DNA of 64,000 bases from Winogradskyella helgolandensis (GTDB taxonomy: Bacteria > Bacteroidota > Bacteroidia > Flavobacteriales > Flavobacteriaceae), in assembly GCF_013404085.1 (NCBI RefSeq), contig NZ_JABFHO010000001.1, positions 2,181,001 to 2,245,000 of the forward strand, written 5' to 3'. The notes under the pieces are model-generated. The model worked only from the letters and a program-made list of their open reading frames with translations. It was not told the origin of the DNA and did not search any database. Position 1 is the stretch's first letter; each line of letters begins with the position of its first letter. The position numbers and the translations under genes are program-made. Below are positions 32,481 to 64,000 of the stretch, piece by piece.

Positions 32481-32582
32481 GTGGTTTATGGAACTAATTT
32501 AATGAATAAATTTGAAAATAAAATTCGAGAGGATTTTAGTAAGTAGGCTAGAACTAGCAATAAATTATATACGGTGTTGTGC
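32481..32582 (-). repeat. Distal boundary attC-like site, left half lost
   Basis: Carries the gene-proximal half of the repeat (GAGAGGATTTTAGTAAG, AAGTAGGCTAGAACTAGC, then TATACGGTGTTGTGC) and a weak match to the middle (GTGGTTTATGGAACTAATTTAATG), but not the outer core. It follows the AbiH-like gene and ends the array against chromosomal sequence. Confidence 0.65.
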
Positions 32583-32589
32583 AACGTTT

Positions 32590-33795
32590 TTATACAACTG
32601 AAACTCTAGTTGATGACGATATGTCTCTTTTCAATTCAGTTTTCAATTCTTTTGATTCTATATGTTGAAAATCTAAAATCTTGTTTCTCATTAATGATTG
32701 GATATCTTTTTTTCCTCTAATATTTAATAGGTTTATTAATAGTTGAGATTTAGACTTTTTACTATGATATATTACAATAATTTTCTTTTTCCTTGATTTA
32801 GATTGATTAATAAAATCAAAAACTTCATTAATATAATCTGCATCAGAACTATCTAATGAATGACCAAAAAAGAAAAAATAAAAGTTAGAATTTTTTCTTT
32901 TTTCATATTCTCCAATAAATTCAAAATCAGTACTATTATTCAGTTTTTGGAAGTATTTAGTAAATGGCAAAAAGAATCTCTTGTCTAAATCGTCATTTGG
33001 TATTTCATTGATACCTAAAACTATTTCATTTGATAAAGAGTCTATCTTACCGTGAAGAAATTTGGTTTTATTTATTCGTTTATAAATTTTTTCAAATGTT
33101 GGTGTGTAGTTAAATGTATAATGTTTTGAAATAGTAGAGAATAAGGTTCTATCAAAGCGTTTTTTTGGATTGTCATAAAACGGAAAAACAAAGACCTCAA
33201 AATAAAGATTGAATATTCGTTTAAAAACATTTAACTCTTCCGTCAATATTTTTGTTATCGCACTTATGTCAACATTTATATAAAAATCATATTTCTTTAT
33301 AAAGTAATCTAAATTTAAAGTGATAGTATAATCTTTATCTACAGATATAATATTGAAGCTATTTAGTACTTGAATTATCTCAATGTCATTGTTAAACAAT
33401 TTTGTGTTGTATGTGATATTGTCTTCTGAAAGAGAACCTTTTGAGAATATATTTTCTTTTATGTAATTTATTGATGAGAATAAAATATTTAGAACATATT
33501 CAATTTTATTTTCAAAGTCAATCCATGTTTCTATTTCTAACTCGTTTTTGAAAAACTGAAACCATAAATTATCTTGAATATTCTGTCTTAATAGCTCGGT
33601 TTTTTCTAAATCAAAATCGAATTTTTTATAATATTCTGAAAGTTTCTCAAAGTTATTACTATGCGAATAAATAGTATCAAAATTAGGTTCTTCGTAACTA
33701 TTTAAAGAGTTCAAAATATTAATGAATTCATTGTAAGATGTGGGCAAACCAAAACTCAAATCAAATCCATTTCCTGTTATTAATATTTTAGGCAT
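32590..33795 (-). CDS. AbiH-like abortive infection family protein (cassette)
   Basis: 401 residues. Opens with ILITGNGFDLSFGLPTSYNEF, the AbiH family N-terminal signature, and continues with FNYTPTFEKIYKRI, KFLHGKIDSLSNEIVLGINEI and FFFGHSLDSSDADYINEVFDFI, all matching that family. AbiH proteins were found as phage abortive-infection factors in lactococci; the mechanism is not settled. The gene sits in a cassette with cores GTTGTGC (32576 to 32582) and GCACAAC (33814 to 33820), a perfect pair extended to 10 nt. Last cassette of the array. Confidence 0.85.
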   Translation of the reverse strand: MPKILITGNGFDLSFGLPTSYNEFINILNSLNSYEEPNFDTIYSHSNNFEKLSEYYKKFDFDLEKTELLRQNIQDNLWFQFFKNELEIETWIDFENKIEYVLNILFSSINYIKENIFSKGSLSEDNITYNTKLFNNDIEIIQVLNSFNIISVDKDYTITLNLDYFIKKYDFYINVDISAITKILTEELNVFKRIFNLYFEVFVFPFYDNPKKRFDRTLFSTISKHYTFNYTPTFEKIYKRINKTKFLHGKIDSLSNEIVLGINEIPNDDLDKRFFLPFTKYFQKLNNSTDFEFIGEYEKRKNSNFYFFFFGHSLDSSDADYINEVFDFINQSKSRKKKIIVIYHSKKSKSQLLINLLNIRGKKDIQSLMRNKILDFQHIESKELKTELKRDISSSTRVSVV

Positions 33796-33813
33796 AGTTT
33801 TTTTTCAAATGTT

Positions 33814-34306
33814 GCACAACTTGTTAGATGAGTACAATCCCTCACGATATCCCTTTTTTTAATTCCGGATAATAAGAGCTATTGCACTTCATTCTTAGTT
33901 TATAAAACTACGCAATACTTTGCAAAGTTTAGTACGTGACTTTACGTACATTTTGATAAAAATAAGATAGTTATGAGACTTATGGTTACTGTTTTCCGTA
34001 ATGGTGTAAAAAGAAATAAGCGATTGCTGAGCATTTTAGATGGTGGTTGTAGACGTAGGGTGGCTTTTGAAGCTGCCTAAATGATGTATATGCTCATTGT
34101 AAATAGATTGATGCTTGGTTGTGATGCTTCTCGATACATGCCGACAAAAAGGTCGGCACACTCGAAGTGACGGTTTGGGAGGGGTTTATATGTGTTGGTA
34201 TATAAGTTACAGATAGATCCGAGCGCAGCGAATTGGTGAAGCTATATTCTGTGAGGATTTTGGTAAGTAGGCGAGGACTAGCTATAAATTATATGCGGTG
34301 TTAGGC
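33814..34306 (-). repeat. Long attC-like site 1 (about 490 bp)
   Basis: Outer core GCACAAC (33814) and inner core GTTAGGC (34300). Between the two shared ends is a MITE/REP-like middle with hairpins GTACGT/ACGTAC (33932 to 33949) and GCCGAC/GTCGGC (34140 to 34157) nested in TCTCGATACA...CACTCGAAG. It belongs to the CHAT cassette. Confidence 0.7.
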
Positions 34307-34310
34307 AAAG

Positions 34311-35366
34311 TTATTTTTTCGGTTTTACAATTATTAAATCCTCAGAATTAATTCCTTCTTTAATAAATAATTCAGGTGTTTCTTCCTCGCTGATATTTTC
34401 TAGCATAAGAAGTGCTTTAGCTTGTTCGAAAGATTTTTTGACAGATAAACCAAAACCGATGGAAGAATAAAATTGAGATGAAAATATTCTTGCAGCTTCG
34501 TCTCCGATTGAAGTATTCATTCCAATTGTTGCTTCAACATATTCAGATACCGCTTCGGCCTGATTTTTAGAATAACAAGTGTTGAAAAAGACTAATCTAA
34601 TTCCGTCTGATGAAGCCATAATTGTTTGTACAATTGCCTCTTTACTAACTATTTTAGTTCTACCATCATTAGTTTGAAAAATGATTTCATCATTATCAGA
34701 TCCGTGTCCGCTAAAGTGAATTATTGATGGTTTGTACTCATTAATAGCTTGTAATAAGTCTATCGGTTGAACTGCCCAGCAGGTTTCAAACTTAACAGAA
34801 TCTCTATGCTTAGATTTCCGTATCATTTCAGATATTGCTCTAGCTTCTTCGTCTAATCTTAATTGTTGTTGGTCAATTGGATTTGATGCAAGAAATAGGA
34901 CAACAATTTTTTCAGGAATATTTTTTAATTCTTCAATTTGATATCGTGTTTCGGTATGTAAATTATTATGATGTTGAAGTGTTGAACCAATATTCCTAAG
35001 GTTTTGTTCTTGTTCTCTTCTTAATTTATCTGCTTCAGCTTTTCTTTTTTTATCAATAGAAGCTAATTCCTTGTCAACTTTAGTTTGAGCGTCTTGAATT
35101 TCTTTATTCTTTTTTCCAATCTTAGTTTCTATATCCGCTATTTTCTTGTAAGAATTAGCAAGGTCTTTTTCATATCTAGTTATCTCTCTTAGTTTAGATT
35201 GAATTGTACTAGTTGATTTAGTCCGATTAATAGCTTCACTCGCTCTATTAATTTTAATTGTTGTATCGGATATTTTTTTTTGCTCTTTGGCTTTATCTGT
35301 CAAAAGCTTAGTCAAATCGCTTTGTTTTCTGGATAGATTATTTCTGTGTGAATCAATTAAAGCCAT
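34311..35366 (-). CDS. CHAT-domain caspase-like protease with N-terminal coiled coil (cassette)
   Basis: 351 residues. Residues 1 to about 145 are a long charged coiled coil (KSTSTIQSKLREITRYEKDLANSYKKI, RKAEADKLRREQEQNL). Residues 150 to 345 are a CHAT domain: FLASNPIDQQQLRLDEEARAI, catalytic His221 in HFSGHGS, catalytic Cys264 in FFNTCYS and the closing FYSSIGFGLSVKKSFEQAKALL. CHAT proteases cut partner proteins in bacterial immune and cell-death systems, but no partner gene is in this cassette. Cores GTTAGGC/GCCTAAC pair perfectly. Confidence 0.88.
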   Translation of the reverse strand: MALIDSHRNNLSRKQSDLTKLLTDKAKEQKKISDTTIKINRASEAINRTKSTSTIQSKLREITRYEKDLANSYKKIADIETKIGKKNKEIQDAQTKVDKELASIDKKRKAEADKLRREQEQNLRNIGSTLQHHNNLHTETRYQIEELKNIPEKIVVLFLASNPIDQQQLRLDEEARAISEMIRKSKHRDSVKFETCWAVQPIDLLQAINEYKPSIIHFSGHGSDNDEIIFQTNDGRTKIVSKEAIVQTIMASSDGIRLVFFNTCYSKNQAEAVSEYVEATIGMNTSIGDEAARIFSSQFYSSIGFGLSVKKSFEQAKALLMLENISEEETPELFIKEGINSEDLIIVKPKK

Positions 35367-35389
35367 TTTTTTAGTTTCGATTTAATTTT

Positions 35390-35881
35390 GCCTAACGTGT
35401 TATAAGAGCACAATCATTCTAGTTATCCCTTTTTTAATTCCAGATAACAAAAGCTATAGTACTCCATTCTTGGTTTATAAAGCTACGCAATACTTTGCAA
35501 AGTTTAGTACGTGACTTTACGTACATTTTGATAAAAATAAGGTAGTTATGAGACTTATGGTTACTGTTTTCCGTAATGCTATAAAAAAAACGAAGCGGTT
35601 GCTGAGCATTTTAGATGGTGGTTGTAGGCGTTGGGTGGTTTTTGGAGCTGTCTAAGTGCTGTATACGATCATTGTAAATAGATTGATGCTTGGTTGTGAT
35701 GCTTCTCGATACATGCCGACAGAAAGGTCGGCACACTCTAAGTGACGGTTTGGAAGGGTTTTATATGCGTTGGTACATAAGTTGCAGATAGGTCCTAGGG
35801 CAGAAATCTTGTGAAGCTATATTCTGCGAGGATTTTGGTAAGTGGGCTAGGACTAGCACTAAGTTATATGCGGTGTTGTAC
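35390..35881 (-). repeat. Long attC-like site 2 (about 490 bp)
   Basis: Outer core GCCTAAC (35390), inner core GTTGTAC (35875). The middle is very similar to site 1, including the TACGTGACTTTACGTA hairpin. Belongs to the cassette of the gene at 35886. Confidence 0.7.
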
Positions 35882-35885
35882 ATAG

Positions 35886-36383
35886 TTATTTTATATTCCA
35901 AATTTTTATAATACTATCAACTTCCTTTTCATTTAATTCAGTTCTTTCACGTGGTTCACTATTGTAAAATATTTTTCCAGTTCGTGTTATTATCGAATCA
36001 TTAATTACCTCACAGTATATGTTAAATTGTCGAGTTCTACCATTAGTTTCCTTTTTCCTAAAAGCATCCCATTCTTCATCCAAGACATAGTTTTCATTTT
36101 CAGAAGGAATTACATTTTTCCAAGCGTGAAGAACTTCATTTTCTTTTGGTTTCTGTCTCCAGGTTTCCCATCTATTTCCGAAAAATTCATCGTGTCTATT
36201 TTCGGCACTCATATTGTCTTTAATAATTGGGATATTCAAAGAATTTCTCAATTCGTTAGCATTGATTCCGTAATTCAGATTTTCTATCTTTTTTTTGTTG
36301 TCAAAGTAGTCGTACGTCAAGTAAATTCCGAAAATCAGAAGTATAATTTTTAAGAAATGTTTTTTCAGATTAAGGTTTTTCAT
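35886..36383 (-). CDS. Membrane-anchored protein of unknown function (cassette)
   Basis: 165 residues from ATG 36383; a longer frame begins at a TTG inside the recombination core (36395) and is not believable. One N-terminal membrane or signal-anchor segment (HFLKIILLIFGIYLTYDYF), then a soluble, polar domain rich in Glu and Arg (GNRWETWRQKPKENEVLHAWKN, DEEWDAFRKKETNGRTRQFNIYCEV). No family recognised. Cores GTTGTAC/GTACAAC pair perfectly. Confidence 0.65.
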   Translation of the reverse strand: MKNLNLKKHFLKIILLIFGIYLTYDYFDNKKKIENLNYGINANELRNSLNIPIIKDNMSAENRHDEFFGNRWETWRQKPKENEVLHAWKNVIPSENENYVLDEEWDAFRKKETNGRTRQFNIYCEVINDSIITRTGKIFYNSEPRERTELNEKEVDSIIKIWNIK

Positions 36384-36389
36384 AATTAT

Positions 36390-36519
36390 GTACAACGTGA
36401 TTGAGTATGGTTTACTTCGTCTGTTCGCTGCGCTCGGGTGTTGCGTGGTTTAGCAACTAAGTTAGTAAACATTCACAAGTAGAGAAGAATACAGCAATTA
36501 ATTATACACGGTGTTGTAG
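36390..36519 (-). repeat. Standard attC-like site (about 130 bp)
   Basis: Outer core GTACAAC, then CGTGATTGAGTATGG, the shared TTCGCTGCGCTCGGG and TTGCGTGG blocks, AAGTTAGTAAA, and the inner half GCAATTAATTATACACGGT with core GTTGTAG (36513). Confidence 0.75.
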
Positions 36520-36526
36520 CACGTTT

Positions 36527-37036
36527 TTATTTTTTGTTATTCCATTCTTCATTTTCTTTCCAAATACTTTCTTCGTCTTTAATTTCAAAACGATATTTAT
36601 TCAAATTGTCAATCAGATGAGTGAAATCGGAAGATTCTTCAATCTTATGTTTAAAAAAATCGGCATCTACAAACTGTGTTAAAATGTCATCATCCTTATC
36701 AATACAATTTTTAATTTCTGCTTTGAGGTCAGTCAGATTATAAGTTCCTATTTGTTTCCAATTTAGATTTACATCAAATGATGGGTTATAAATTGTTTTC
36801 GCCAAGAATCTATTCCATTTAGTGTTTTTGAATTTATCAGCTTTTTGCTCCAAAGTCAATATTTTCATATCGCTAGAATACATTTCCGAATCATCATTTT
36901 CTTGTATCAAGCTGTAAGCACTTGCTTTGTTAAAAAACTTGATGGTTTCGTCATTGATAATTTCAATTCCTCTGTTTTTGTAGATACAAATTAGAGGAAG
37001 TTCAGGCTGTTCAGATATTTGATTAATGTTCGTCAT
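36527..37036 (-). CDS. Cytoplasmic protein of unknown function (cassette)
   Basis: 169 residues, acidic and soluble, no signal or membrane segment. Distinctive segments are NRGIEIINDETIKFFNKASAY and ADFFKHKIEESSDFTHLIDNLNKYRFEIKDEESIWKENEEW. Family not recognised. Cores GTTGTAG/CTACAAC pair perfectly, showing a complete cassette. Confidence 0.65.
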   Translation of the reverse strand: MTNINQISEQPELPLICIYKNRGIEIINDETIKFFNKASAYSLIQENDDSEMYSSDMKILTLEQKADKFKNTKWNRFLAKTIYNPSFDVNLNWKQIGTYNLTDLKAEIKNCIDKDDDILTQFVDADFFKHKIEESSDFTHLIDNLNKYRFEIKDEESIWKENEEWNNKK

Positions 37037-37045
37037 TCAAATGTG

Positions 37046-37508
37046 CTACAACTTGTTATAAAAGTACAATCACTCACGTTATCCCTATTTTAATTCCGGA
37101 TAACAAAAGCTATAGCACTCCATTCTTAGTTTATAAAACTACGCAATACTTTGCAAAGTTTAGTACGTAGCTTTAGTACATTTCAATAAAAATAAGGTAG
37201 TTACAAGATTTATGGTTGCTGTTTTCCGTAATGGTATAAAAAAGTTAAGCGGTTGCTGAGCATTTTTGATGGTGGTTGTAGGCGTTGGGTGGTTTTTGAA
37301 GCTGTCTACGTGCTGTATACGATCATTGTAAATAGATTGGTGCTTGGTTGTGATGCTTCTCGATACATGCCGACAAAAAGGTTGGCACACTCGAAGTGAC
37401 AGGGTGGGAGCGTTTTGTGTTAGTTACTATTTTGCAATTAATAACTAAAGTCAGTCCGAGTGTTTTGAGTAGGAGAGAACAAGCAATTACCTATAGCCAT
37501 TGTTACCA
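37046..37508 (-). repeat. Long attC-like site 3 with divergent inner half
   Basis: Outer core CTACAAC (37046) and the same MITE-like middle as sites 1 and 2, but the inner half differs (GAACAAGCAATTACC, TATAGCCATT, core GTTACCA at 37502). A similar inner half is found at 54620 to 54648. Suggests exchange of site halves. Confidence 0.65.
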
Positions 37509-37528
37509 CACGTTATTTTTTATTACAG

Positions 37529-40519
37529 TTAATGATTTACAATTAATTTTAAGGTCTCAATTTTATGATCTGTTAAAAAAACTCTCACAAAATAAATTCC
37601 ATCACTTAGTTTGTTGGTATTATAAGTAATATTAGATACTTTTCTATTGGATTCTTTATGAATACTTTTTCCCGATAAATCCCAAATTTCAAATTTTTCA
37701 ATATTTGAATTTGTAATTGACTCAATTGTAATATAATTTTCAGATGGATTAGGGTAAAGTCTAACTATTTGAGAATTTCCATTTTCAGTAATTTGATAAT
37801 TATTGATACTTAAAGTTGAGGCATCAATATCTGTTACATAAAGCTCATTACCGCTAATATCATTTCTTGCTCTAAAATATAGATTATTATCCGTTGCTCC
37901 CATTTCTTCTATCGAATTATAATTCTCAAAGTTTGGACCGTTTAGAATATTTACATCTAATTGCAATGGTACATTTAGATTATCATTGGTTATCCATATT
38001 TTATGCGGAAATGATTCGGCCAAATAGAGTAGATTATTATTGTAGCAAGTTAAATTACTTATATACGAGAAATCTGTAGTGTTAGACCCTGCTATCTGTT
38101 GCGTGGTAATTCCGTTAGTTCTCCATAATTCTTGATCTATTCCAAATTTATCTTCAGCTAAAAAATAAACATATCCTCCACAAGTAGTAATTATATTGAT
38201 ATCAGTATTTGGTATTGCTATTGATGAATCTGTAAAGGCATCAAATAGTTGTGCGGTACCATCAATTGTTCCATCAGTTTTATAAATAACCTTATTAGAG
38301 AAGTTTACAGGATGGTTTGCTACAAAATAGATTTCATTGTTTAAGAGTGTGGTAAACTGGATGTTACTATCTATATTATCTCCAAAAGACTGTAAATGGC
38401 TAGTGCCAGAGGCTGTACCGTCAGAAATCCATACATCATGTGGACCATAAGTAGTTCCAGAGGTTTCTGCAACTATTATTAATTTATCATTAACAGCCTT
38501 TAAAACTCTCATATCGTTTAAATTGATTATTTTATTTGTTCCAGATTCTGTGCCATCTGTTGTCCATAAACCAGAGCCAGAATTATCGTTAGCAATAAAA
38601 TATACTGTATTGTTCATCATTACAAATTCCCTAGCATGACTACCATAATTATAGTTTGAACTGGTATTGATGTTTTTTATCATATAAGTGCCTGATTCGC
38701 TACCATCACTTCTCCATAGCTCAGAACCATTAATCCCATCATCAGCACTGAAGTAAAGAATATCATCCAGAACTGTGAATTGCTGATAGTCTTGCATACT
38801 ACTTTGGCTGTTAGTTCTGATATCTTTTACCATAAAAGTACCACTTTCAGTTCCGTCACTTCTCCATAGTTCAAAGCCATGTGTGCCATCAATTGCGCTA
38901 AAATATAATATACCATTCATTTCTTTCATTTCAGAATCATCATCGATGCTGTTATATCCAGGGTTTATATCTTTTATTAGTTGTGTCCCGATTGCTGTTC
39001 CATCACTTTTAAATAATTGGCTACCATATTCTGTTCCTCTTGCTCTGAAAAAAAGATTTCCATTAACATTAGTGAATTTTGAAGCATTGCTACTATTTGA
39101 ATAGTTTAAATCTGCAAAAAATGATGTTCCGGTAATCGTTCCATCAGTCATCCATAATTCATTACCGTTTGTTTCATTCTGTCCCGTCAAAATAGTAGAA
39201 TTATTAACAGTAACGAAACTTTCTTCTAAACCAGAAATGTTACTATCTGTAATATTTGATAATTCAAATGTTCCATTTGATGAACCGTCACTTACCCATA
39301 GTGTTCGATCAGACGAATTGGTACTAGTTGTAAAAAAAAGAAGCTTGTTATTTACATTGTCTAAATGGAATTTTTTAATCCATACTGATGAATTCCCGTC
39401 ATTAATATCCTTAAGTAAAGTTGTACCCGTTTCTGTTCCATCTGATTTCCATATTTCAGTTCCATGAACATTGTCGTCTGCTAGGAAGTACACTTCATTG
39501 TTGAATGATATATATTGGTTATTAGATGATATACTATTAAAATTTGTATTGTTTATGTTCTTTACCATTGATGTGCCTGCTTCGGTTCCATCGCTTTTCC
39601 ATAGTTCCGTTCCGTTTATTCCATCATTAGCTTCAAAAATTATAAAATTGTTAATGGAACTACCTTTTAATGAATAGGCACTTGAGTTAGAACCTGTTTT
39701 TATATCTTTAACGATAGTTGTTCCTGATTCTGTCCCATCACTTCTCCATAATTCGTTACCATTAGTTCCATTGTCAGCAAAAAAATAAAAGAAGTTATTC
39801 AAGGATAAAAATTGAATTCCACTACTTAATCCAGAATAATTTGCATTAATGTCTTTTACCATTGCTGTTCCGGCTTCTGTTCCATCACTTTTCCATAGTT
39901 CAGTTCCATTTACCCCATCATTAGCTGTAAAATAGATAATGTTATTAAAAACGAATAAACTATTTGGACTTCCATTTCCGTTTGAATTAATATCTTTTAT
40001 CATTATTGTCCCAGCTTCTGTTCCATCACTTTTCCATAATTCATAGCCATCAACATCATTGGTGGCGGTAAAGAATAGTGTTCCGTTAAAATCTATCAAA
40101 TTTGTAGGGCCGATGTAAGAACTGTTATTATTGGGGAGAATATCTTTAATCATTACTGTACCATTTTCAGTTCCATCACTTTTCCATAATTCCGAACCGT
40201 ACACTCCATCGTCTGCTGTAAAATAAAGCGTATTGTTGACAACAACTAAAGAACTTGGACTCGATGAGTTTTGACCTTGTTTTATATCCTTAACCATTAA
40301 AGTTCCGTCAGAAGTTCCATCTGAATACCATAATTCCCTACCGAAGTTTTCAAATGAACCATCTGTAGCAGTAAAGTAAAAACCATTTTGAAAAGCTACA
40401 AAGGTTTGTGGGTCGCTATCTTCGTGAAAATTTATTTCAATAAGACTTGCATCTATTGTCTGGGCTGTTAAAATTCTAGTAATGAAAATAAATAATAGAA
40501 AAGTAAAATTGTATTTCAT
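37529..40519 (-). CDS. Giant ELWxSDGT-repeat secreted protein with T9SS sorting domain (cassette)
   Basis: 996 residues. Signal peptide, then about 15 repeats of roughly 45 to 60 residues built around ELWKSDGTEAGT followed by a hydrophobic-V/I-K-D-I/N strand and a YFxA-D/N-DGxxGxELW link, a beta-propeller-like pattern. The C-terminus (about 915 to 996) is a type IX sorting domain (RLYPNPSENYITIES...GIYFVRVFLTDHKIETLKLIV). Surface-exposed or secreted; ligand unknown. At about 3.5 kb with its site, this is an exceptionally large cassette. Cores GTTACCA/TGGTAAC pair perfectly. Confidence 0.85.
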   Translation of the reverse strand: MKYNFTFLLFIFITRILTAQTIDASLIEINFHEDSDPQTFVAFQNGFYFTATDGSFENFGRELWYSDGTSDGTLMVKDIKQGQNSSSPSSLVVVNNTLYFTADDGVYGSELWKSDGTENGTVMIKDILPNNNSSYIGPTNLIDFNGTLFFTATNDVDGYELWKSDGTEAGTIMIKDINSNGNGSPNSLFVFNNIIYFTANDGVNGTELWKSDGTEAGTAMVKDINANYSGLSSGIQFLSLNNFFYFFADNGTNGNELWRSDGTESGTTIVKDIKTGSNSSAYSLKGSSINNFIIFEANDGINGTELWKSDGTEAGTSMVKNINNTNFNSISSNNQYISFNNEVYFLADDNVHGTEIWKSDGTETGTTLLKDINDGNSSVWIKKFHLDNVNNKLLFFTTSTNSSDRTLWVSDGSSNGTFELSNITDSNISGLEESFVTVNNSTILTGQNETNGNELWMTDGTITGTSFFADLNYSNSSNASKFTNVNGNLFFRARGTEYGSQLFKSDGTAIGTQLIKDINPGYNSIDDDSEMKEMNGILYFSAIDGTHGFELWRSDGTESGTFMVKDIRTNSQSSMQDYQQFTVLDDILYFSADDGINGSELWRSDGSESGTYMIKNINTSSNYNYGSHAREFVMMNNTVYFIANDNSGSGLWTTDGTESGTNKIINLNDMRVLKAVNDKLIIVAETSGTTYGPHDVWISDGTASGTSHLQSFGDNIDSNIQFTTLLNNEIYFVANHPVNFSNKVIYKTDGTIDGTAQLFDAFTDSSIAIPNTDINIITTCGGYVYFLAEDKFGIDQELWRTNGITTQQIAGSNTTDFSYISNLTCYNNNLLYLAESFPHKIWITNDNLNVPLQLDVNILNGPNFENYNSIEEMGATDNNLYFRARNDISGNELYVTDIDASTLSINNYQITENGNSQIVRLYPNPSENYITIESITNSNIEKFEIWDLSGKSIHKESNRKVSNITYNTNKLSDGIYFVRVFLTDHKIETLKLIVNH

Positions 40520-40554
40520 AGGTTTGTTTTTTTACGTAATTTTTGTTTAATGTG

Positions 40555-41045: not shown

Positions 41046-41057
41046 GCAGTTTTTTGT

Positions 41058-41975: not shown

Positions 41976-41993
41976 TGGTTTTGTTCAAATTGA

Positions 41994-42124: not shown

Positions 42125-42128
42125 AACG

Positions 42129-54356: not shown

Positions 54357-54392
54357 TTTTATATTTTTTAAATTGTTCTTGATTTTAATGTT

Positions 54393-56416: not shown

Positions 56417-56437
56417 TTTCTAGGTGTGTTAAATTGT

Positions 56438-56621
56438 GTAAAACGTGTTGTGTATGGTTTACTTCGTCTGCTCGCTGCGCTCGGGTGTTGCGTGGTTAAG
56501 CAACTAAGTTAGTAAATTCAAACCGAATAGACACGAGCGTAACGAACTGTGCGTAGCAAAAATCCGCAAGGATTTTCGTAAGTAGGCTAGTACTAGCAAT
56601 GGAATATATACGGTGTTAGGC
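56438..56621 (-). repeat. Standard attC-like site (about 184 bp)
   Basis: Outer core GTAAAAC (56438), GTGTTGTGTATGG, TCGCTGCGCTCGGG; contains an extra segment CACGAGCGTAACGAACTGTGCG before AAAATCCGCAAGGATTTTC. Inner core GTTAGGC (56615). Confidence 0.77.
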
Positions 56622-56628
56622 ACAGTAT

Positions 56629-57519
56629 TTATTCAATTTTATATGTCGCAATCACTTTTTTTCTAATTTCTTCACTTGCTAATTCAACGCCTCCTTGACT
56701 TCCAAAAATTTGATAATTTTCTTTTTGACTATAAATTCTGTCAATTAGCATTTTGAATGGTGTTTGGTGTAAGTCATCGTCTTGAACTGCTTTTTGAATT
56801 ATTGGTAGATATTTTTCCATCATTTCAAGGTTTGAATGTTGAATTACACTCCACATTACAGACTCAAATTTTTCTCCAACTAATGTTTTACCAATATATT
56901 TTTGATATTTATTAAATAATGAATCGATGAGTTTTTGATTTCGTTTGTCCAATTCAGGCTGTTTTTTTAAATATATCTTTTCTTCAGCACTCCGATATTC
57001 TTGGTCAAGTTTGCTAATATTTGAAATCAATTCTACAAGATTATAATCTAGATTATTTTCTGAAGAATAAGTTTTTAAATTAAATTTGGATGCCTCTTTT
57101 AAATTGGAATCTTGGCATATTTTTATTTGTTTTTCTATATCATCACGTATTATATCAAATTTGCTTGATTTAAAAAATATACTAGACGTAAAATATTCGC
57201 AACTCCCTTCCGATTTTTTAAATTTGTTATATGCTATTAATATATTTTTCTTGCTTTCATTTAATGTGAGAAAGGATGATAGTATATTAAAATAATCAGC
57301 TCGATTGAAGCCTAGAGCATCATTATTTACATCTTTCTTCACTTCATTTAATACAAATACTGAGTGTTCAAATTTTTTGTCTGAAACTTCATTTTGTTTT
57401 GGTTCATAACCTATAATTTCTTTTTCAAAATTTTCATAGCTAAAAGTAAATTCATTTGTTTGAGCATTGCAACAAATAAAAATTGAGAGAATAAAAACTG
57501 GTAAAATTAAATATTTCAT
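56629..57519 (-). CDS. Secreted helical protein of unknown function (cassette)
   Basis: 296 residues. Signal peptide MKYLILPVFILSIFICCNAQ; the rest is charged, mostly helical (EEKIYLKKQPELDKRNQKLIDSLFNKYQKYIGKTLVGEKFESVMWSVIQHSNLEMMEKYLPII). The segment QKYIGKTLVGEKFESVMWSVIQHS resembles the DUF6624 region common in Bacteroidota. Cores GTTAGGC/GCCTAAC pair perfectly, although the outer one lies 118 bp before the ATG. Confidence 0.7.
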   Translation of the reverse strand: MKYLILPVFILSIFICCNAQTNEFTFSYENFEKEIIGYEPKQNEVSDKKFEHSVFVLNEVKKDVNNDALGFNRADYFNILSSFLTLNESKKNILIAYNKFKKSEGSCEYFTSSIFFKSSKFDIIRDDIEKQIKICQDSNLKEASKFNLKTYSSENNLDYNLVELISNISKLDQEYRSAEEKIYLKKQPELDKRNQKLIDSLFNKYQKYIGKTLVGEKFESVMWSVIQHSNLEMMEKYLPIIQKAVQDDDLHQTPFKMLIDRIYSQKENYQIFGSQGGVELASEEIRKKVIATYKIE

Positions 57520-57791: not shown

Positions 57792-59054
57792 TTAATTAAA
57801 AAGGTCTGATTTAGAAACCTGTCTTGAAATATCATCTAATTCGTTATGAACTCCATTATCATCGGCAGTTCCAAAAAAGGCTATCACTAAATTGCGGGAA
57901 GGTGAAATATAAAGACCTTGTCCGCTAAATCCACCTTTATAAAAATCTCCGTTTTCCATTACTTTGTCCCATTGATAGGTATTGTGATGAACAACTTCTT
58001 TATCAAGTGTATAATTTTCAGAACCGTATGCAGTTACCAAGTGAGGACGACCTTGCTTTTGAATTTTATCAAAATATTCATTTGAAACGAAAGCATTCTC
58101 ACCTGAACGACCATCGGTTAAAAACATATAGCCAAATCGAGCTAAATCTCGAAGTGTAGAATTCATTCCTGCGTGAGAAATGCTAGTGCCATTTGTTTGA
58201 GTAATAAATGCATCAGATTCCGCACCGATTTTTCGCCAAATTTCACGTTCAATATTTTTCGCATAAGAAAGACCTGTGATTCTCTCTATGAGGCAAGAGA
58301 GAACGAATGTGTTTATTGAAGTATATTCAAATATCTCTCCAGAAGGTTTTGCAGATGATAAGGTTTTAATGTGCTCAAAAGCATTGTCTGCGGTTTTTTC
58401 TGTTCGTTTTAAAAATCCGAGAGCTGCTTCAAATTGATAGTAACAAGTTTCAGGGTTTTCAAAAGCACCATCAACCCATTCACGACAATCAATTCCTGAA
58501 GCCATATCGAGAATGTCAATAACAGGAACGTTTTCCCATCCAGACCCTTTAAGTTCAGGTAGATAATGTTCTATTGGTTTAGTTACATCAAGTTGTTTTC
58601 TGTCTTCCAAAATTGCTATAAGAGTTGAAGCAAACACTTTAGATACTGACCAGTAAAGATGCCTATCGTTTGGAAACATTCTTGGGTAGGCTTCATATAC
58701 AATACGGTCTCCTTGCATTATGATCATACCATCCACTTTCTCGCTAGTTTTGACATAGTTTTGAAGTGTCATTTGTCCTAAACCAGAAGTAACAACAAAC
58801 TCCTCGATTTCTTTGCGGTAATCTTCTTTCAGGCTTTTAATATTTCCTTCTCTATTGATAATGGCGTGAGTCCAAAATTCAGGCATATTTAAAAATATAT
58901 AACGAGATATTTCACCTCCATCATCCCAATTATCCAAATTCCATTGCTTAAATACGGATTGAATTTCCTTATTTGAAAAGCCATCATAAGTTTGAGCAAA
59001 TAAATTTGAATATGGAACAATTAATAAAAGAAGTAATAGTCTGTAATAGTACAT
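57792..59054 (-). CDS. Serine hydrolase, beta-lactamase class C fold (cassette)
   Basis: 420 residues from ATG 59054 (MYYYRLLLLLLIVPYSNLFAQ, signal peptide); the longer frame upstream crosses the recombination core. Active-site SxxK at Ser136 to Lys139 (YWSVSKVF); EYTSINTFVLS takes the YxN place; the glycine-rich HNTYQWDKVMENGDFYKGGFSGQGLYIS is near the end. Esterase or peptidase activity is more likely than beta-lactamase. Cores GTGATGC/GCATAAC pair with one mismatch. Confidence 0.9.
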   Translation of the reverse strand: MYYYRLLLLLLIVPYSNLFAQTYDGFSNKEIQSVFKQWNLDNWDDGGEISRYIFLNMPEFWTHAIINREGNIKSLKEDYRKEIEEFVVTSGLGQMTLQNYVKTSEKVDGMIIMQGDRIVYEAYPRMFPNDRHLYWSVSKVFASTLIAILEDRKQLDVTKPIEHYLPELKGSGWENVPVIDILDMASGIDCREWVDGAFENPETCYYQFEAALGFLKRTEKTADNAFEHIKTLSSAKPSGEIFEYTSINTFVLSCLIERITGLSYAKNIEREIWRKIGAESDAFITQTNGTSISHAGMNSTLRDLARFGYMFLTDGRSGENAFVSNEYFDKIQKQGRPHLVTAYGSENYTLDKEVVHHNTYQWDKVMENGDFYKGGFSGQGLYISPSRNLVIAFFGTADDNGVHNELDDISRQVSKSDLFN

Positions 59055-59087
59055 TTTTTTCAAGGATGTTTGGTTTTTAGAAATTGA

Positions 59088-59222
59088 GCATAACGTGATT
59101 GTATATGGTTTGTTGCGTGGTTTAGCTACTAAGTTAGCACACATTTACGAACCTGTGAATATTCCACATGAACCTTTACAAGTAGGGAAATACAAAGCCA
59201 TTAAGTATGCCTCTTGTTGTGT
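59088..59222 (-). repeat. attC-like site with altered inner end
   Basis: Outer core GCATAAC (59088), GTGATTGTATATGG, TTGCGTGG, AAGTTAGCACACA. Inner end CAAGTAGGGAAATACAAAGCCATTAAGTATGC is followed by CTCTTGTTGTG instead of the expected GGTGTT core. Confidence 0.6.
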
Positions 59223-59231: not shown

Positions 59232-60920
59232 CTAACGGCTAATTTCTTTAGCCCAATCCCCTCTATAAATTATTTTTTGATCGTGAATTTTAAAAGTAAA
59301 CTTGCCATACCTAACCGACATTCCTGCTGATGCATTTACAACCCAACAATTATCAGGAATAGTAAAGGAATTTTCAGAAGTAATTATATTTTTATCCCTT
59401 TGATTATGAATAGGAACAGAGACTTGTGGACCAACATCCCATCCAAGATGTGTATTATAGCTCACTATTAAATCGCCAATCAATTTAAAATTTTCATTGG
59501 TTTCTATTGTTGTTTTAATGCTTCCAGTTGTTGCATCGTTTAAATCGTTTTCAGGTGTGACTTCTATCGTTAATTTTGGTAAGTCGATAGCTGTTTTAGA
59601 AGCTAGGATTATAATAGATTCGTTTTTGATAACTTTATCTTCACTATCATAAAACTCGAAAGCAAGTTCCATCGCTTCTAATCCTACTGGGTTAATGGTT
59701 AATTGGTCTGCAAAATAACCTTCGCGTGTTATGTTTTTAGAATAGATGATTTTATCACGGTTTTTCACAACCACTTTTTTAATCGTCTCGTCGTTATATA
59801 GTTCTATAGGTATGGTTGTATTGGTGTGTACTGTTTTATTTTTAGGACTTATAATTAGCCCTTTCATATAATCTTGCATGGCAAACCAAACAGGACGAGG
59901 TGACCCATATTTGTCGTTAACATCTTTGTACCCCCAGAAACCAAACCATTCTTCGGGTTGTTCTTTATTATGGATGCTTTTTTCGCCTCCTTTCCACCAA
60001 CCATCAGCATAATAGAATGGGCACATTCCTACAGCACCAGCATCTATCAGATCGCGGTAATTAGATATCAATCCTTCACTTTGTTCCTTTAGGGTACGAG
60101 AACCAAAACTACCAAAACCTCCTTTTGGTGATACTGAATGTCCGAATTCAGTAATTATAAACGGTTTATCTAATCCGTTTAACTCATTTAAACCTTTAAT
60201 ATAATCTCTAAATCCCATGGTGGCTGTTTGGCCTTCATTGTAGCCATAACAATTGTAAGCATATACATCATACATACTTTCATCCATCCAATCGCTTATC
60301 ATGGCATTTGCAGAAAGTGTTACTGGTACATTTGGATGATTCTTATGAATCATATTTACCATCATCTTCATCAGGTCTTTAAATGCCTTGGCAGAAACTT
60401 TATGAATGTGGTCTGTTTGCGGTTCGTTAATAACCAAATACGTAATTATACAATCATAGTTTGGTGCATATTTCAATATATTTTCAAGCTGTGTCTTACA
60501 ATGCTTTATAAATTTAGGGTCTCCATAATCTTCTTCTGGATTAACTTCTAAACCCATAATTAATTTTAAACCCGATTCTTGTACCAATTTTAATTGTGCT
60601 TCAGAAAATTGACTCCAAGTTCTTATGGTATTATAACCTCCTTTTTTAATGTTCTCGAGATCAAATTTCATTAACTCTAAGTGATCTTTCTTTTCATCTT
60701 CATAAGGATGTTGTCCGGGACGTGCACCTATTTCGTAGCCGATTGCTTTAATAAAAAACTTTTCTCCATTGAGGTAGTACCAATTGTCTTTGAGTTCAAT
60801 TGTTGTTGCTGTTACTGTTGCTGCTGTTGTTTCTGTTGTTACTGTCGTTTCCGATTGAGAACATCCGCAAATCAGTAGAGCAAGACTTGCCATGACTATT
60901 AATGCTAAATTTTGTTTCAT
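59232..60920 (-). CDS. Clan GH-A glycoside hydrolase-like lipoprotein (cassette)
   Basis: 562 residues. Lipobox LICGC near residue 20, a Thr-rich linker, then a TIM-barrel glycosidase (about 45 to 370): FFIKAIGYEIGARPGQ, KGGYNTIRTWSQFSE, acid/base candidate Glu166 in LVINEPQ and nucleophile candidate Glu258 in FIITEFGHS. This NEP...E pair is the clan GH-A signature (GH2, GH5 and others). A C-terminal beta domain follows. Probable outer-membrane polysaccharide-degrading enzyme, though no SusCD pair is near. Confidence 0.82.
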   Translation of the reverse strand: MKQNLALIVMASLALLICGCSQSETTVTTETTAATVTATTIELKDNWYYLNGEKFFIKAIGYEIGARPGQHPYEDEKKDHLELMKFDLENIKKGGYNTIRTWSQFSEAQLKLVQESGLKLIMGLEVNPEEDYGDPKFIKHCKTQLENILKYAPNYDCIITYLVINEPQTDHIHKVSAKAFKDLMKMMVNMIHKNHPNVPVTLSANAMISDWMDESMYDVYAYNCYGYNEGQTATMGFRDYIKGLNELNGLDKPFIITEFGHSVSPKGGFGSFGSRTLKEQSEGLISNYRDLIDAGAVGMCPFYYADGWWKGGEKSIHNKEQPEEWFGFWGYKDVNDKYGSPRPVWFAMQDYMKGLIISPKNKTVHTNTTIPIELYNDETIKKVVVKNRDKIIYSKNITREGYFADQLTINPVGLEAMELAFEFYDSEDKVIKNESIIILASKTAIDLPKLTIEVTPENDLNDATTGSIKTTIETNENFKLIGDLIVSYNTHLGWDVGPQVSVPIHNQRDKNIITSENSFTIPDNCWVVNASAGMSVRYGKFTFKIHDQKIIYRGDWAKEISR

Positions 60921-60938: not shown

Positions 60939-61011
60939 GTACCGGTTTTGAGTATGGTTTACTTCGTCTATTCGCTGCGCTTGGGTGTTGCGTGGTTCAG
61001 CAACTAAGTTA
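60939..61011 (-). repeat. Truncated attC-like site
   Basis: Only the outer half is present: GTACCGGTTTTGAGTATGG, TTCGCTGCGCTTGGG, TTGCGTGG, CAACTAAGTTAG. The following gene's stop codon (61009 to 61011) is inside the repeat sequence AAGTTAGT, and the inner half is missing. Confidence 0.65.
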
Positions 61012-61482
61012 GTGAACAATTATTTTTTCAGCAATGTATTTCTCAATTTGTTCTTTGTCCGTTTTATTTTTTAATATTAATAATTCGTTGTTCTTATGTG
61101 TTCGATAAATCATTAAGTATTTCGTTTTTCCACTGCGAGTTAATGCCGAGTATTGGAATCGGTTTGGGTCAAACGTTTCACTTATTAATTCCGTGTTTTG
61201 AGTTCGGTCGAGTATTTTTTTCAGTCGAGTTAATTTTCCGCTTTTCTCGTCTATTTTTAATTCCGAGTAGTAAATCCAAGACGTAAATCGGTAAATAGTA
61301 TATCCGATTAAAGTCAAAATTGCAACAAAAATGCCGATTCCAATTCCGAGAAACCAAATTAAGAATACGAATGAGGTAGAAGTCCAAATTAATAATTCTT
61401 TCCAGTTAAATGGAATTCTATCGCTCAGCGTGTGAACGTGTCCATTTTTGGAAATTCTAAGGTAGTCTTCGTGTTCGTTCAT
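61009..61482 (-). CDS. Two-helix membrane protein, 3' end fused into an attC remnant
   Basis: 157 residues from ATG 61482 (MNEHEDYLRISKNGHVHTL). Two membrane helices (about 32 to 50 and 52 to 70), then a cytoplasmic domain (GKLTRLKKILDRTQNTELISETFDPNRFQYSALTRSGKTKYLMIYRTHKNNELLILKNKTD). The last residues and stop codon are read from attC-like sequence, so the natural C-terminus was probably altered by a deletion. Outer core GTACACC (61489) is AAC to ACC. Family not recognised. Confidence 0.65.
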   Translation of the reverse strand: MNEHEDYLRISKNGHVHTLSDRIPFNWKELLIWTSTSFVFLIWFLGIGIGIFVAILTLIGYTIYRFTSWIYYSELKIDEKSGKLTRLKKILDRTQNTELISETFDPNRFQYSALTRSGKTKYLMIYRTHKNNELLILKNKTDKEQIEKYIAEKIIVH

Positions 61483-61488
61483 AATTGC

Positions 61489-61645
61489 GTACACCGTGTT
61501 TGTGTATGGTTTGCTTGGCCTATTCGTTGCGCTAGGGTGGTGCGTGGTTAGGTAACTAAGTTAGTAAATATAAACCGAATAGAAAATCCGCTCAGGTTTT
61601 CGGAAGTGAGCTAGAATTAGCCATAAATTATATACGGTGTTGGCA
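61489..61645 (-). repeat. Standard attC-like site (about 157 bp)
   Basis: Outer core GTACACC, GTGTTTGTGTATGG, diverged GC-rich block, AAATCCGCTCAGGTTTTC, AGTGAGCTAGAATTAGCC, inner core GTTGGCA (61639). Confidence 0.72.
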
Positions 61646-61652
61646 GTAGTTT

Positions 61653-61811: not shown

Positions 61812-62243
61812 TTATTCGTTCGGGTCAAATCCATAATAAAAGTCATTCAACTTTCCATTCGAACTTTGAAGTCCAACTATGTCCATTATTTCCTGAAAAT
61901 AAAGTAAAATCCTTTCTCTATCTTCAGAATCATATCCTAATTCCATTTCTGGGAATTTTAAAAGTCCGATTTTAATTGCTTCTTGGTATTTTTCGTCCGT
62001 TGGTTTTTTAGATTCCGCAATTTGTTTAAAATCAGTTGCGACTTCGTTGATTTTTTTGGTCAATATTGGTCTCAATTTTTCATCCGATATATTTGGTGAA
62101 TGATTTTCCGCATAGAATTTTTTCTTTGCAATAAATTCTACAAATTTTTCATTCGCATTTTTAGGTGTTTTCATTTCGGTTGCATTTTGTCCGCAAGCAG
62201 ATAAAGTTAAAAACAGAACTAATATTTTGATGTATTTCATCAT
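61812..62243 (-). CDS. DUF4844-like lipoprotein (cassette, first gene)
   Basis: 143 residues. Lipobox LSACG, then a compact helical domain ending in GLLKFPEMELGYDSEDRERILLYFQEIMDIVGLQSSNGKLNDFYYGFDP, which matches the DUF4844 C-terminal signature. Function unknown. Forms a two-gene cassette with the small basic gene downstream. Outer core TTCACAAT is degenerate. Confidence 0.8.
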   Translation of the reverse strand: MMKYIKILVLFLTLSACGQNATEMKTPKNANEKFVEFIAKKKFYAENHSPNISDEKLRPILTKKINEVATDFKQIAESKKPTDEKYQEAIKIGLLKFPEMELGYDSEDRERILLYFQEIMDIVGLQSSNGKLNDFYYGFDPNE

Positions 62244-62256
62244 TTCTCAAATGGCT

Positions 62257-62387
62257 TCACAATGTTGATGTATAAGGTTAGTTGCGCATGTAAGCAACTA
62301 AATTAGTGAATAAATCACAGATAGCATATTCCGCAGTAACATTCGTAAGTCGGCTAGAACTAGCATTAATTATACCTGTTGTTACTA
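62257..62387 (-). repeat. Standard attC-like site (about 130 bp)
   Basis: Outer end TTCACAATGTTGATGTATAAGG (AAT for AAC), CATATTCCGCAGTAACATTCG, AAGTCGGCTAGAACTAGC, TATACCTGTT, inner core GTTACTA (62381). Confidence 0.68.
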
Positions 62388-62936
62388 CCAGTTTTTATTC
62401 AGCTTTTCTACAATCAAATAATTCTCTGTTGCAGAAATTTCTTTTTTAAATGACACTTTTTTAATTCCGTTATAATCTTTCATAAACCTCAAAGTTGCTT
62501 TAAAATCGGAAATCCCAAAGTTTTCATTTAGTTTGATATCCATAAAATAGCTCGCGAACTTTCCTAAACTATCATTTTCTATTCTGTATTCGGCTATTGG
62601 TCCATCAGTTATTTTAAATGAACCAGGAATTGGTGTAATCCTCACATTGGTTTTTCCAATTCCAATTTTTATGTTGTCAAGTTTATGTTTGACATCATAT
62701 TCTCTAATTGGAAGAATCATTGATGAATCACAAAGAAAATGGTAATTCTGAACAACGGAACTTTGATTGTTTTCTAGAAAATGATTTATATTCGACAATA
62801 TTAAACTGTCTTTCTTTTTTTCTTTTTCAGATGATGTGAGTTCAATATTTACAGATTTAACGTCATTCTTACAGCCAACTAAGAAGATTAGAAGTATTTC
62901 GAGTATTGAAATTCGTATTTGTGTTTTAATTCTCAA
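62385..62936 (-). CDS. Lipoprotein of unknown function (cassette)
   Basis: 183 residues, TTG start. Signal and lipobox (ILEILLIFLVGCKND), then a beta-rich domain (NIKIGIGKTNVRITPIPGSFKITDGPIAEYRIENDSLGKFASYFMDIKL). Family not recognised. Its stop falls in the inner core. Cores GTTACTA/TGGTAAC pair with one mismatch. Confidence 0.65.
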   Translation of the reverse strand: MRIKTQIRISILEILLIFLVGCKNDVKSVNIELTSSEKEKKKDSLILSNINHFLENNQSSVVQNYHFLCDSSMILPIREYDVKHKLDNIKIGIGKTNVRITPIPGSFKITDGPIAEYRIENDSLGKFASYFMDIKLNENFGISDFKATLRFMKDYNGIKKVSFKKEISATENYLIVEKLNKNW

Positions 62937-62952
62937 GAGTTTTTCTAATTGT

Positions 62953-63090
62953 GGTAACGTGATTGTGTATGGTTAGTTGCGAGGTTAAGCAACTAAATTA
63001 GTAAACTTTAACGAACCCGTGAATATTCCGCAGGAATTTTCGCAAGTTGGCAAGAACCAAGCAATTAATTATTCACGGCTTAAGTTGGCA
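62953..63090 (-). repeat. Standard attC-like site (about 138 bp)
   Basis: Outer core TGGTAAC, GTGATTGTGTATGG, AAATTAGTAAAC, GAATATTCCGCAGGAATTTTC, CAAGCAATTAATTATTCACGG, inner core GTTGGCA (63084). Confidence 0.76.
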
Positions 63091-63103
63091 GTAGTTTTTA
63101 TTT

Positions 63104-63568
63104 TCAGATTTTATTATTTTCAGATTTAATCGTATATATATAATTTGATTGTTTTTGCCTTTTTGATAAATTAATTAAGTCGTTGATTGATATTTTTTTA
63201 TTATCATATTCTATATAATCAATGTAATGTATATAGCTCATATTAAAAGTTTCTTCAATTCTGACTGTAGAATTTTTTGGGATGAGAACGCTTAAAGTAT
63301 TATTATTCAGTCGTTGTTTTTTAATAATATTTACCTCATTGATTTTACTGAATTCTTTTGGGTTTAAAATTCCTTTTTTACAATCAACTTCAAAATGATT
63401 GCTTCCGTAATCAGGCAATTCAGACAATTCGTTGATATCAATATTATAAGTTACTTTAAACAGAACATCATTAGACATTATGTTTTGAATAAATAAATCA
63501 CTTTTTGTTGTACAACTTATAAAAAGAGTCAAAATTATTAAGAGAGAAAAGAGTTTTATTTTTTTCAT
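63104..63568 (-). CDS. Small lipoprotein of unknown function (cassette)
   Basis: 154 residues. Lipobox LFISC near residue 19, then a beta-rich domain (NDVLFKVTYNIDINELSELPDYGSNHFEVDCKKG, VLIPKNSTVRIEETFN). No family recognised. Cores GTTGGCA/TGCCAAC pair perfectly, with complementarity over 10 to 12 nt. Confidence 0.68.
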   Translation of the reverse strand: MKKIKLFSLLIILTLFISCTTKSDLFIQNIMSNDVLFKVTYNIDINELSELPDYGSNHFEVDCKKGILNPKEFSKINEVNIIKKQRLNNNTLSVLIPKNSTVRIEETFNMSYIHYIDYIEYDNKKISINDLINLSKRQKQSNYIYTIKSENNKI

Positions 63569-63590
63569 CAGATTGCTGTGTTCAAATTAC

Positions 63591-63721
63591 TGCCAACGGC
63601 TCGAATATGGGGCGTTTGGCATTTCTAAACTCCAACCTGTCAAACCGCTAATATATTTATTAAATGTTATTATGTTCAAAATTAGCACTATCCGCCAAAA
63701 GACTTATATTTTTTGTTAGTG
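63591..63721 (-). repeat. Divergent attC-like site
   Basis: Outer core TGCCAAC, GGCTCGAATATGGGGCGTTTGG; the middle does not match standard sites. Inner core GTTAGTG (63715), overlapping the stop codon of the edge gene. Confidence 0.5.
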
Positions 63722-64000
63722 CCAGTACTTCCTTATCTCTGTCTCCAATTCTATCATTATTTTCGAATCTATTCTTATTTCAGAATCCTTAATAAATATC
63801 GACACACCTAAATAATGTTCTTGATGAAGTGTCAAAATATAATTCCTGTATTCAAAATCCCAATATTTTTGGTCAAGTCCGTTATTTTTTTTAGTAAATC
63901 TAACATTCAATTTTGTCTCTAAAATATTCGAAATCAATTTGAAATCATCGGGATTTGAAGATAAGTCAATCTCTGTATTTTTGTTTTCAATAAGTATTAA
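63716..64000 (-). CDS. Hypothetical protein, 5' partial at the right edge (cassette)
   Basis: The frame is open to base 64,000, so about 94 residues of the C-terminal part are visible (LILIENKNTEIDLSSNPDDFK then LISNILETKLNVRFTKKNNGLDQKYWDFEYRNYILTLHQEHYLGVSIFIKD). A TTG at 63937 is an internal codon, not the start. The length and beta-rich C-terminus resemble small Bacteroidota proteins of immunity type, but I cannot assign a family. Confidence 0.6.
   Translation of the reverse strand, partial: LILIENKNTEIDLSSNPDDFKLISNILETKLNVRFTKKNNGLDQKYWDFEYRNYILTLHQEHYLGVSIFIKDSEIRIDSKIMIELETEIRKYWH

Follow-up and report, generated by a model that had tools for sequence, protein, structure and literature searches.

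The window analysed here, a stretch of 64,000 nucleotides (C1:2181001-2245000) from the 4.6-Mb, two-contig genome of Winogradskyella helgolandensis (99.97% complete), carries in its right half an integron-like array of gene cassettes separated by recombination sites. The array lies on the minus strand at 32526..64000 and runs on past the window edge to ~68.3 kb (L013). It is flanked on the left by a 187-aa gene and an S9 peptidase, and on the right by a CHU_C-tailed protein and, further out, by SecA-type chromosomal genes (SecA was named by eye). No integrase was found at either end. The initial annotation described genes running in one direction from 32.5 kb on, and the main open reading frames (ORFs) do lie on the minus strand, accompanied by shorter overlapping ORFs on the plus strand. 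It also let the array extend to the right edge of the window. The array is indeed present throughout, but it does not stop there: recombination sites persist to 67.5 kb, and a copy of the attachment site attI at ~68.3 kb heads the array. The cargo comprises an AbiH-like protein, a CHAT protein, a CoiA-like nuclease, an acetyltransferase, a prolyl isomerase, peptidases, a glycoside hydrolase and many unknowns. The features, in window positions, are listed below (R1 is the site model described further on).

32526..32588, minus: terminal half-site, 3' end of the last cassette and chromosome junction; core GTT-GTGCAAC at 32576
32590..33795, minus: cassette 1, AbiH-like abortive-infection protein; ends GTGCAAC/GTTGCAC match exactly
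33811..34309, minus: long recombination site, ~490 bp
34311..35366, minus: cassette 2, CHAT-domain protein (PDC-S66-like)
35387..35884, minus: long recombination site
35886..36395, minus: cassette 3 gene, no Pfam match
36387..36522, minus: recombination site, in model R1
36527..37036, minus: cassette 4 gene, no Pfam match
37043..37511, minus: long recombination site
37529..40519, minus: cassette 5, 996-aa repeat protein with type IX secretion tail
40552..41048, minus: long recombination site
41058..41975, minus: cassette 6, CoiA-like nuclease
41991..42127, minus: recombination site, in model R1
42129..42926, minus: cassette 7 gene, no Pfam match
42941..43330: long-form site with the shared insert
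43341..45880, minus: unit 8 with two genes; its 3' core is not recognisable, and this part is interrupted or degenerate
45916..46095, minus: degenerate recombination site
46618..48233, minus: pair of related DUF6090 genes, separated by a reduced site at ~47.48 kb
48450..48974, minus: cassette gene, GNAT acetyltransferase
49000..49142, minus: recombination site, in model R1
49140..50318, minus: cassette gene, no Pfam match; at this locus G002 has a 52%-identical homologue as its first gene after the left flank
50342..50506, minus: recombination site
50514..51149, minus: cassette gene, PPIC-type prolyl isomerase
51143..51308, minus: recombination site, in model R1
51314..52096, minus: cassette gene, TIMP/NTR-like
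52100..52262, minus: recombination site, in model R1
52278..53198, minus: cassette gene; ends GTGCAAC/GTTGCAC match exactly
53156..53292, minus: recombination site, in model R1
53304..54401, minus: cassette gene, beta-propeller protein with type IX secretion tail
54397..54427, minus: internal attI copy without integrase, its palindrome followed by GTT-AGCAAAC; joined to the next cassette's 3' half-site, which reaches ~54652
54656..56416, minus: cassette gene, X-Pro dipeptidyl-peptidase of family S15
56435..56624, minus: recombination site
56629..57519, minus: cassette gene, DUF6624-like (just below cut-off); ends AGGCACA/TGTGCCT match exactly
57792..59144, minus: cassette gene, beta-lactamase-fold serine hydrolase
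59085..59222, minus: recombination site, in model R1
59232..60920, minus: cassette gene, glycoside hydrolase
61009..61494, minus: cassette gene of unknown kind
61486..61648, minus: recombination site, in model R1
61812..62243, minus: cassette gene, DUF4844
62254..62390, minus: recombination site, in model R1
62385..62936, minus: cassette gene, no Pfam match
62949..63093, minus: recombination site, in model R1
63104..63568, minus: cassette gene, no Pfam match; ends GGCAGTA/TACTGCC match exactly
63716..64000, minus: cassette gene crossing the window edge (ends at 64504)

The intergenic repeats of the array fall into several related families. Their length was first given as 130 to 490 bp. More precisely, regular sites measure 122-189 bp from AAC to GTT, with a median of 127 (113 sites of the genome, found by motifs and a 300-bp limit), and long forms of ~460-490 bp, with copies at ~33.8, 35.4, 37.0, 40.6 and 42.9 kb, contain a further insert. 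One repeat per gene, bounded by AAC and GTT cores, is the rule for most of the array, but no 3' core was found for the unit at 43.3-45.9 kb, the sites near 46.6 and 47.5 kb have shrunk to hardly more than core ends, and the cores at ~49.0, 60.9 and 62.3 kb are degenerate. Likewise, the cargo is unrelated overall, as first described, but the genes at 46.6 and 47.5 kb, which are neighbours, share a relationship (both are DUF6090). Comparison of the window from 32 to 64 kb with Rfam gave no match at E up to 1. The five adjoining long-form sites (33811-34309, 35387-35884, 37043-37511, 40552-41048 and 42941-43330) have in common an insert of ~350 bp with a GCCGAC..GTCGGC hairpin, possibly a small mobile element inside the sites. 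Beyond the window edge, two units at 67493-68262 in window numbering (L013 ~4493-5262) have ends that match at 6/7 positions each and contain no ORF of at least 80 aa; these are perhaps gene-less cassettes.

Read on the coding strand, the mobile unit has the form GTT-N7-A[T/A/G].. gene ..AAY-N7'-AAC-ACCGTATATAATT.., in which N7' is the reverse complement of the unit's own N7. End complementarity inside the cassette, and not across the integrated site, is a hallmark of integron cassettes. Among 25 hand-curated units of the window array (to 68.3 kb), the own-end match was 5.84/7, whereas partners across an integrated site matched at 2.29/7; none of 100,000 permutations reached the own-end value. 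Because some of the 5' cores in this set had been picked with the match in view, the comparison was repeated by motif alone on 115 units from six arrays, which hold part of the genome's sites, and it is this repeat that should be relied on. Own ends were complementary over all 7 bases in 75 of the 115 units and over at least 6 in 99, compared with 0 and 4, respectively, of 113 integrated-site partners; among all other end pairs, 116 of 13,110 were exact. The R''/R' complementarity is therefore a property of the cassette and not of the integrated site. The 115 units contain 74 distinct N7 sequences, in which base 1 is a purine in 112 units and bases 2 and 3 in 52 units each.

Cassette-sized blocks recur at other places in the arrays of this genome with 96-99% identity, and they indicate where recombination takes place. 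We inspected 10 such pairs, picked by hand among 30 of the 42 matches listed. In seven of the eight pairs with at least 95% identity, the likeness ends 0-2 bp past the GTT that closes the unit's site. One cassette follows an attC in array A, whereas its copy in array C follows an attI; identity between the two starts exactly at the GTT. The first cassette of the integrase-linked array is 91% identical, again from the GTT on, to cassettes inside Xanthomarina and Gelidibacter arrays (the Xanthomarina copy ends in a masked stretch). Cassettes have thus been duplicated and exchanged, with the crossover at GTT in these natural copies.

Folding of the sites as single strands, which had been proposed as a check, revealed a clear asymmetry in the energy model. 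With DNA parameters, and with sites above 300 bp excluded, 110 of 113 sites are more stable as the bottom strand than as the top strand. The mean probability of the 10-bp end stem is 0.89 in the excised form versus 0.24 in the integrated form (91 sites), and in the alignment the central spacer is unpaired, with 6 nt on one arm versus 3 on the other. A bottom-strand preference and an unpaired spacer, both expected of attC sites, are therefore predicted here. The inner stem is conserved in sequence, and when written by hand it pairs in 87.8% of cells, compared with 29-52% when slid. Several of its bottom-strand pairs are G-T, for which the top strand would have A-C mismatches, a difference that may encode strand choice. 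In classical attC sites, according to published work, strand choice is made via an extrahelical base.

The window array is one of several in the genome. A search with model R1, built from 15 sites, returned at least 149 sites at E 1e-8 or better. On the same contig, ~2.1 Mb from the window array, a dedicated tyrosine recombinase of 375 aa is encoded at C1:4327165-4328292, and an array that starts close behind it, at C1:4329922, reaches the contig end. A 43-kb array opens contig 2 in the same direction as the integrase-linked array, which it may continue. Both contig 2 at position 1 and contig 1 at its end break inside arrays. Given that contigs end inside arrays or near integrases, the repeats probably break assemblies and hide arrays. 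Two other tyrosine recombinases (C2:44989-45786 and C1:4178180-4179157) lie beyond two of the arrays, ~2 and 4 kb from the last site listed for each, which may mean that other elements target array ends.

Behind the stop codon of the dedicated recombinase is a palindrome, GGATATA..TATATCC, followed after a few bases by GTT-N7-A, the start of the first cassette. We refer to this arrangement as attI. Such palindromes mostly end 3-7 bp ahead of a GTT, at 26-124 bp behind the integrase stop codon. A rule requiring a palindrome (arms of at least 6, loop up to 8) and GTTRN6A behind the stop was satisfied in 32 of 54 integrase loci, compared with 2 of 104 control ORF ends. The exact end partner of the first cassette was present downstream in 9/25 and 14/24 loci (200 bp scanned, 2.5 kb reached) and in 18/26 loci of a set overlapping these (160 bp scanned, 4 kb reached), versus 121 of 5,000 random positions (2.4%); these counts retain matches that seem accidental by position or flank (e.g., L098; L133, L155). 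By sequence pattern and natural junctions, then, an attI lies beside the integrase gene with the first cassette joined to it.

The orientation of the arrays relative to the integrase is nearly uniform. In a set of 32 loci from named or metagenome-assembled genomes (34 less two fragments), 16 loci contain sites, and all 68 of these sites are oriented alike; in six of the other 16 loci, the contig ends within 170 bp of the integrase. In the first set of loci, sites accompany 19 of 27 integrases within the stretch examined, and 16 of these integrases run towards the sites. The three that point away, G004, G009 and G018 (L075, L044 and L062), form a subgroup with the orientation of classical integrons. 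The cassette adjacent to the G018 integrase is 96% identical, from the GTT on, to one in array E of W. helgolandensis.

The attI palindrome also heads three other arrays of the genome that have no integrase beside them. In the window array it occurs at the head, at ~68.27 kb, and once internally, at 54.4 kb. Because an attI heads it without an integrase, the window array looks like an integrase-less daughter or remnant that would be served in trans, and given the internal copy it may represent two fused arrays. The two attI copies (54397-54580 and 68269-68450, the latter L013 5269-5450) share ~150 bp of upstream sequence with each other and with array E. This conserved module makes them longer than the attI of the integrase array.

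The recombinase itself is not an IntI by the usual markers. TIGR02249 and NF011946 both score below cut-off on it, and the ~40-aa insert present in six of six IntIs is absent from all 25 aligned relatives; IntI4 residues 180-245 face 22 residues of the integrase. Instead, the protein has an extra N-terminal part of ~100 aa. Among solved structures, archaeal XerC-like and XerA proteins match best in sequence, followed by IntI4 (2a3v), and a fold comparison of the whole protein also returned XerA and then 2a3v, with the N-terminal part left uncovered. The N-terminal 105 residues gave a single match among PDB sequences, at E 0.13 and of no apparent meaning. A likeness of this part to HARP was considered, but 10 proteins gave no such Pfam match at E up to 1. 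NCBI places the family in NF040815 (XerA-like) and names relatives 'site-specific tyrosine recombinase/integron integrase'; the nearest named relatives are from Winogradskyella and Psychroserpens. In the tree, these integrases group with IntI, apart from four Xer proteins (100/99), and IntI sits on a long branch among them.

Both components are common across flavobacteria. R1 recognizes sites in 24 of the 25 genomes from the genus (W. helgolandensis included), in 91 of 120 genomes of the family (one per genus) and, elsewhere in the order, in 1 of 15. At E 1e-50, the integrase is found in 84 of the same 120 genomes. Both are present in 74 genera and neither in 19 (Fisher p = 5e-6, a value not corrected for kinship). 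In Tenacibaculum, for instance, we find integrase and sites; a Tenacibaculum genome paper, which concerns a different strain, reports no integrons after IntegronFinder 2.0. The IntegronFinder 2.0 survey lists very few integrons in the Bacteroidetes/Chlorobi group and one complete integron in Bacteroidetes proper, that of Salinibacter ruber.

The window locus also shows turnover. In G015, G017 and G021, the S9 peptidase and the SecA gene lie 2-5 kb apart with no sites between them. The close relatives G002 and G013 have sites at the same locus, and only one of the genes examined there resembles a window cassette gene (52% identity). G005 is uninformative, having only the S9 peptidase of the flank genes and two sites a few kb away, and 19 other genomes have no peptidase match at the cut-off. 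The array has therefore been gained or lost between species. The initial annotation held that identical gene order across strains would argue against cassettes; three relatives lack the array at this locus, and two have almost wholly different genes in the part examined.

Taken together, we consider it highly probable (roughly 0.9) that this is an integron-type system with a non-IntI integrase, in which mobile cassettes are captured and excised by site-specific recombination. The initial reading of an integron-like cassette array remains the best one. In the mechanism we envisage, a cassette extends from GTT-N7 to N7'-AAC and then includes the left half of a site that is usually 122-189 bp long. 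Excision would join the cassette's own ends in a circle, so that N7 pairs with N7'. The bottom strand of the rebuilt site would then fold into a hairpin made up of a terminal stem of 10 bp, a spacer whose unequal arms stay unpaired, and a long inner stem. We suspect that this single strand is the substrate of the integrase, and that the dedicated tyrosine recombinase catalyses cassette recombination by recognizing the hairpin and joining it at GTT to another site or to attI. One integrase may serve several arrays in trans, including the window array, which keeps its head attI and has no integrase.

Several observations weigh against this interpretation. The covariation of the inner stem is not significant (52 of 500 shuffles reach its score), and RNAalifold, applied to the 15 aligned sites, gave only 3 pairs and did not propose the long inner stem, so that R1 is in practice a sequence profile. 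For two of the 18 sites folded from the window, the coding strand gives the better fold. Of the duplicated pairs inspected, the eighth with at least 95% identity is out of register by one base, and two at 90% and 94% diverge earlier, inside the site and not at GTT. The attI rule was missed in 22 of 54 integrase loci, including that of W. helgolandensis itself, where the palindrome loop is longer than allowed. Three integrases point away from their sites, and 8 of the 27 in the first set have no modelled site in the stretch examined; some of these are at contig ends and some belong to families that may be beyond the reach of R1. Among the 120 family genomes, 17 have sites without an integrase at the cut-off and 10 the reverse. 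Finally, the integrase lacks an insert reported as necessary for integron recombination.

The window array could alternatively be the remnant of an ordinary IntI-type integron that has lost its IntI, i.e., a cluster of attC sites lacking integron-integrases (CALIN). Uniform cassettes, AAC/GTT cores, bottom-strand folding and an array without an integrase would all be expected in that case, and classical IntI is present in the phylum (over cut-off in 84 of 296 genomes, nearly all outside the class). However, no IntI scores over cut-off in this 99.97% complete genome, and of 85 genomes with a strong IntI match one is marked as the same class and the rest as the same phylum only. Moreover, the arrays stand behind a different integrase with its own attI, their core is GTT-R-N6 and not GTTRRRY, and end pairing extends 7 bases past the GTT. 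We regard a remnant of this kind as very improbable.

A slightly smaller chance still goes to the housekeeping XerC/XerD pair recombining these sites as it does dif modules, with the extra integrase a neighbour by coincidence. The genome does encode two Xer-like proteins of ~300-310 aa, and NCBI calls the integrase family XerA-like. Yet the sites are usually 122-189 bp long rather than short and dif-like, and in dozens of genera the dedicated integrase is followed immediately by attI, which carries the end of the first cassette. Among the sites listed, none falls within the 20 kb surrounding either Xer gene, where attI was not sought. That the repeats are dispersed transposon ends or miniature inverted-repeat transposable elements between unrelated genes, as their relatedness, inverted-repeat ends and insert-bearing long forms might suggest, is barely credible. 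Their ends are cassette-specific and pair within the gene-bearing unit rather than within the repeat, and the genes run in one direction. Close duplicated units consist of gene plus repeat and finish at GTT as cassettes do, so the transposon ends that the initial annotation named as its refutation are not what is found.

If an integron-type system with a non-IntI integrase is accepted, it has consequences beyond this genome. The system is widespread, and it is undescribed in the titles and abstract openings searched, a body of text without bioRxiv and with few subscription papers. Standard search tools would probably miss these arrays, because the recombinase lacks the domain that defines integrons. 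A large pool of cassette genes, many of them of unknown function and some resembling phage defence, would then have escaped notice, probably as a result of searches geared to the IntI domain. The system would also challenge the view that integron recombination requires the IntI insert.

A further implication concerns tet(X3). A plasmid search with the integrase led to Acinetobacter plasmids encoding a shorter, 221-aa relative followed by tet(X3), a gene order (xerD-tet(X3)) that is also given in a published paper. Between the two genes are a palindrome, a few bases and GTT-ATGTGCC-ATT (L165:4708-4898, an Acinetobacter indicus plasmid), which in sequence reads as the flavobacterial pattern of attI and cassette start. 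The 261-bp junction is found in 50 plasmid records, 49 of them from Acinetobacter. No matching 3' cassette end was found in the 211 bases around and behind the end of tet(X3), so the pattern covers only the 5' side of a cassette. For tet(X14) in Empedobacter, another paper describes an oppositely oriented xerD and no integron nearby, and calls movement of tet(X) by XerD a question worth testing; the present system would supply a testable answer.

From an evolutionary perspective, we tentatively propose, at somewhat less than even odds, that these enzymes form a second branch of integron integrases, perhaps ancestral to an IntI that later acquired its insert, and that their new N-terminal domain recognizes the hairpin. 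On the same proposal, they would maintain a cassette pool that Flavobacteriaceae share, and the long-noted 'xerD' before tet(X3)/tet(X5) would be a truncated member of the family with its attI behind it. In that case tet(X) would have left flavobacteria as a first-position cassette.

The published work drawn on here is PMC8618304, PMC9024848, PMC9668308, PMC8138268, PMC2727003, PMC10013915, PMC8565304, PMC7494873 and PMC7473080. The nearest structures and the NCBI naming link the integrase to XerA/XerC-like recombinases (NF040815), but here the enzymes are tied to cassette arrays and attI and stand apart from the four Xer proteins in the tree. Sites of 122-189 bp likewise separate the system from the short dif-like sites of XerC/XerD dif modules. 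Like a CALIN, the window array is a cluster of attC-type sites without an integrase; unlike one, it keeps an attI at its head and another inside, with the integrase elsewhere in the genome. Treponema-type integrons share the unusual orientation of the integrase, and the archaeal integron paper states that typical Spirochaetota IntIs are generally reversed and that IntIs are defined by a specific domain. Those enzymes are IntIs with that domain, which the present ones lack.

There is also a close resemblance to the Vibrio superintegron and other sedentary chromosomal IntI integrons. In common are one gene per cassette, in mostly one-ORF cassettes running in the same direction between recombination sites, R-box pairing within the cassette, a GTT crossover, a bottom-strand hairpin, an integrase beside attI, large arrays and gene turnover. 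In contrast to IntI integrons, the integrase here has no IntI-specific domain around patch III and has the additional N-terminal part; the core is GTT-R-N6, with 7 pairing bases instead of 4; and attI is a palindrome behind an integrase gene that is mostly co-directional with the cassettes. Of the RYYYAAC/GTTRRRY consensus, AAC/GTT (on which the search for units relied) and the first purine are kept, and the full consensus is not. The name integron thus describes the apparent working of the system and not membership by the usual definition, since the integrase is without the IntI-specific domain. In the strict sense this is not an integron; by the behaviour of its DNA, it is one.

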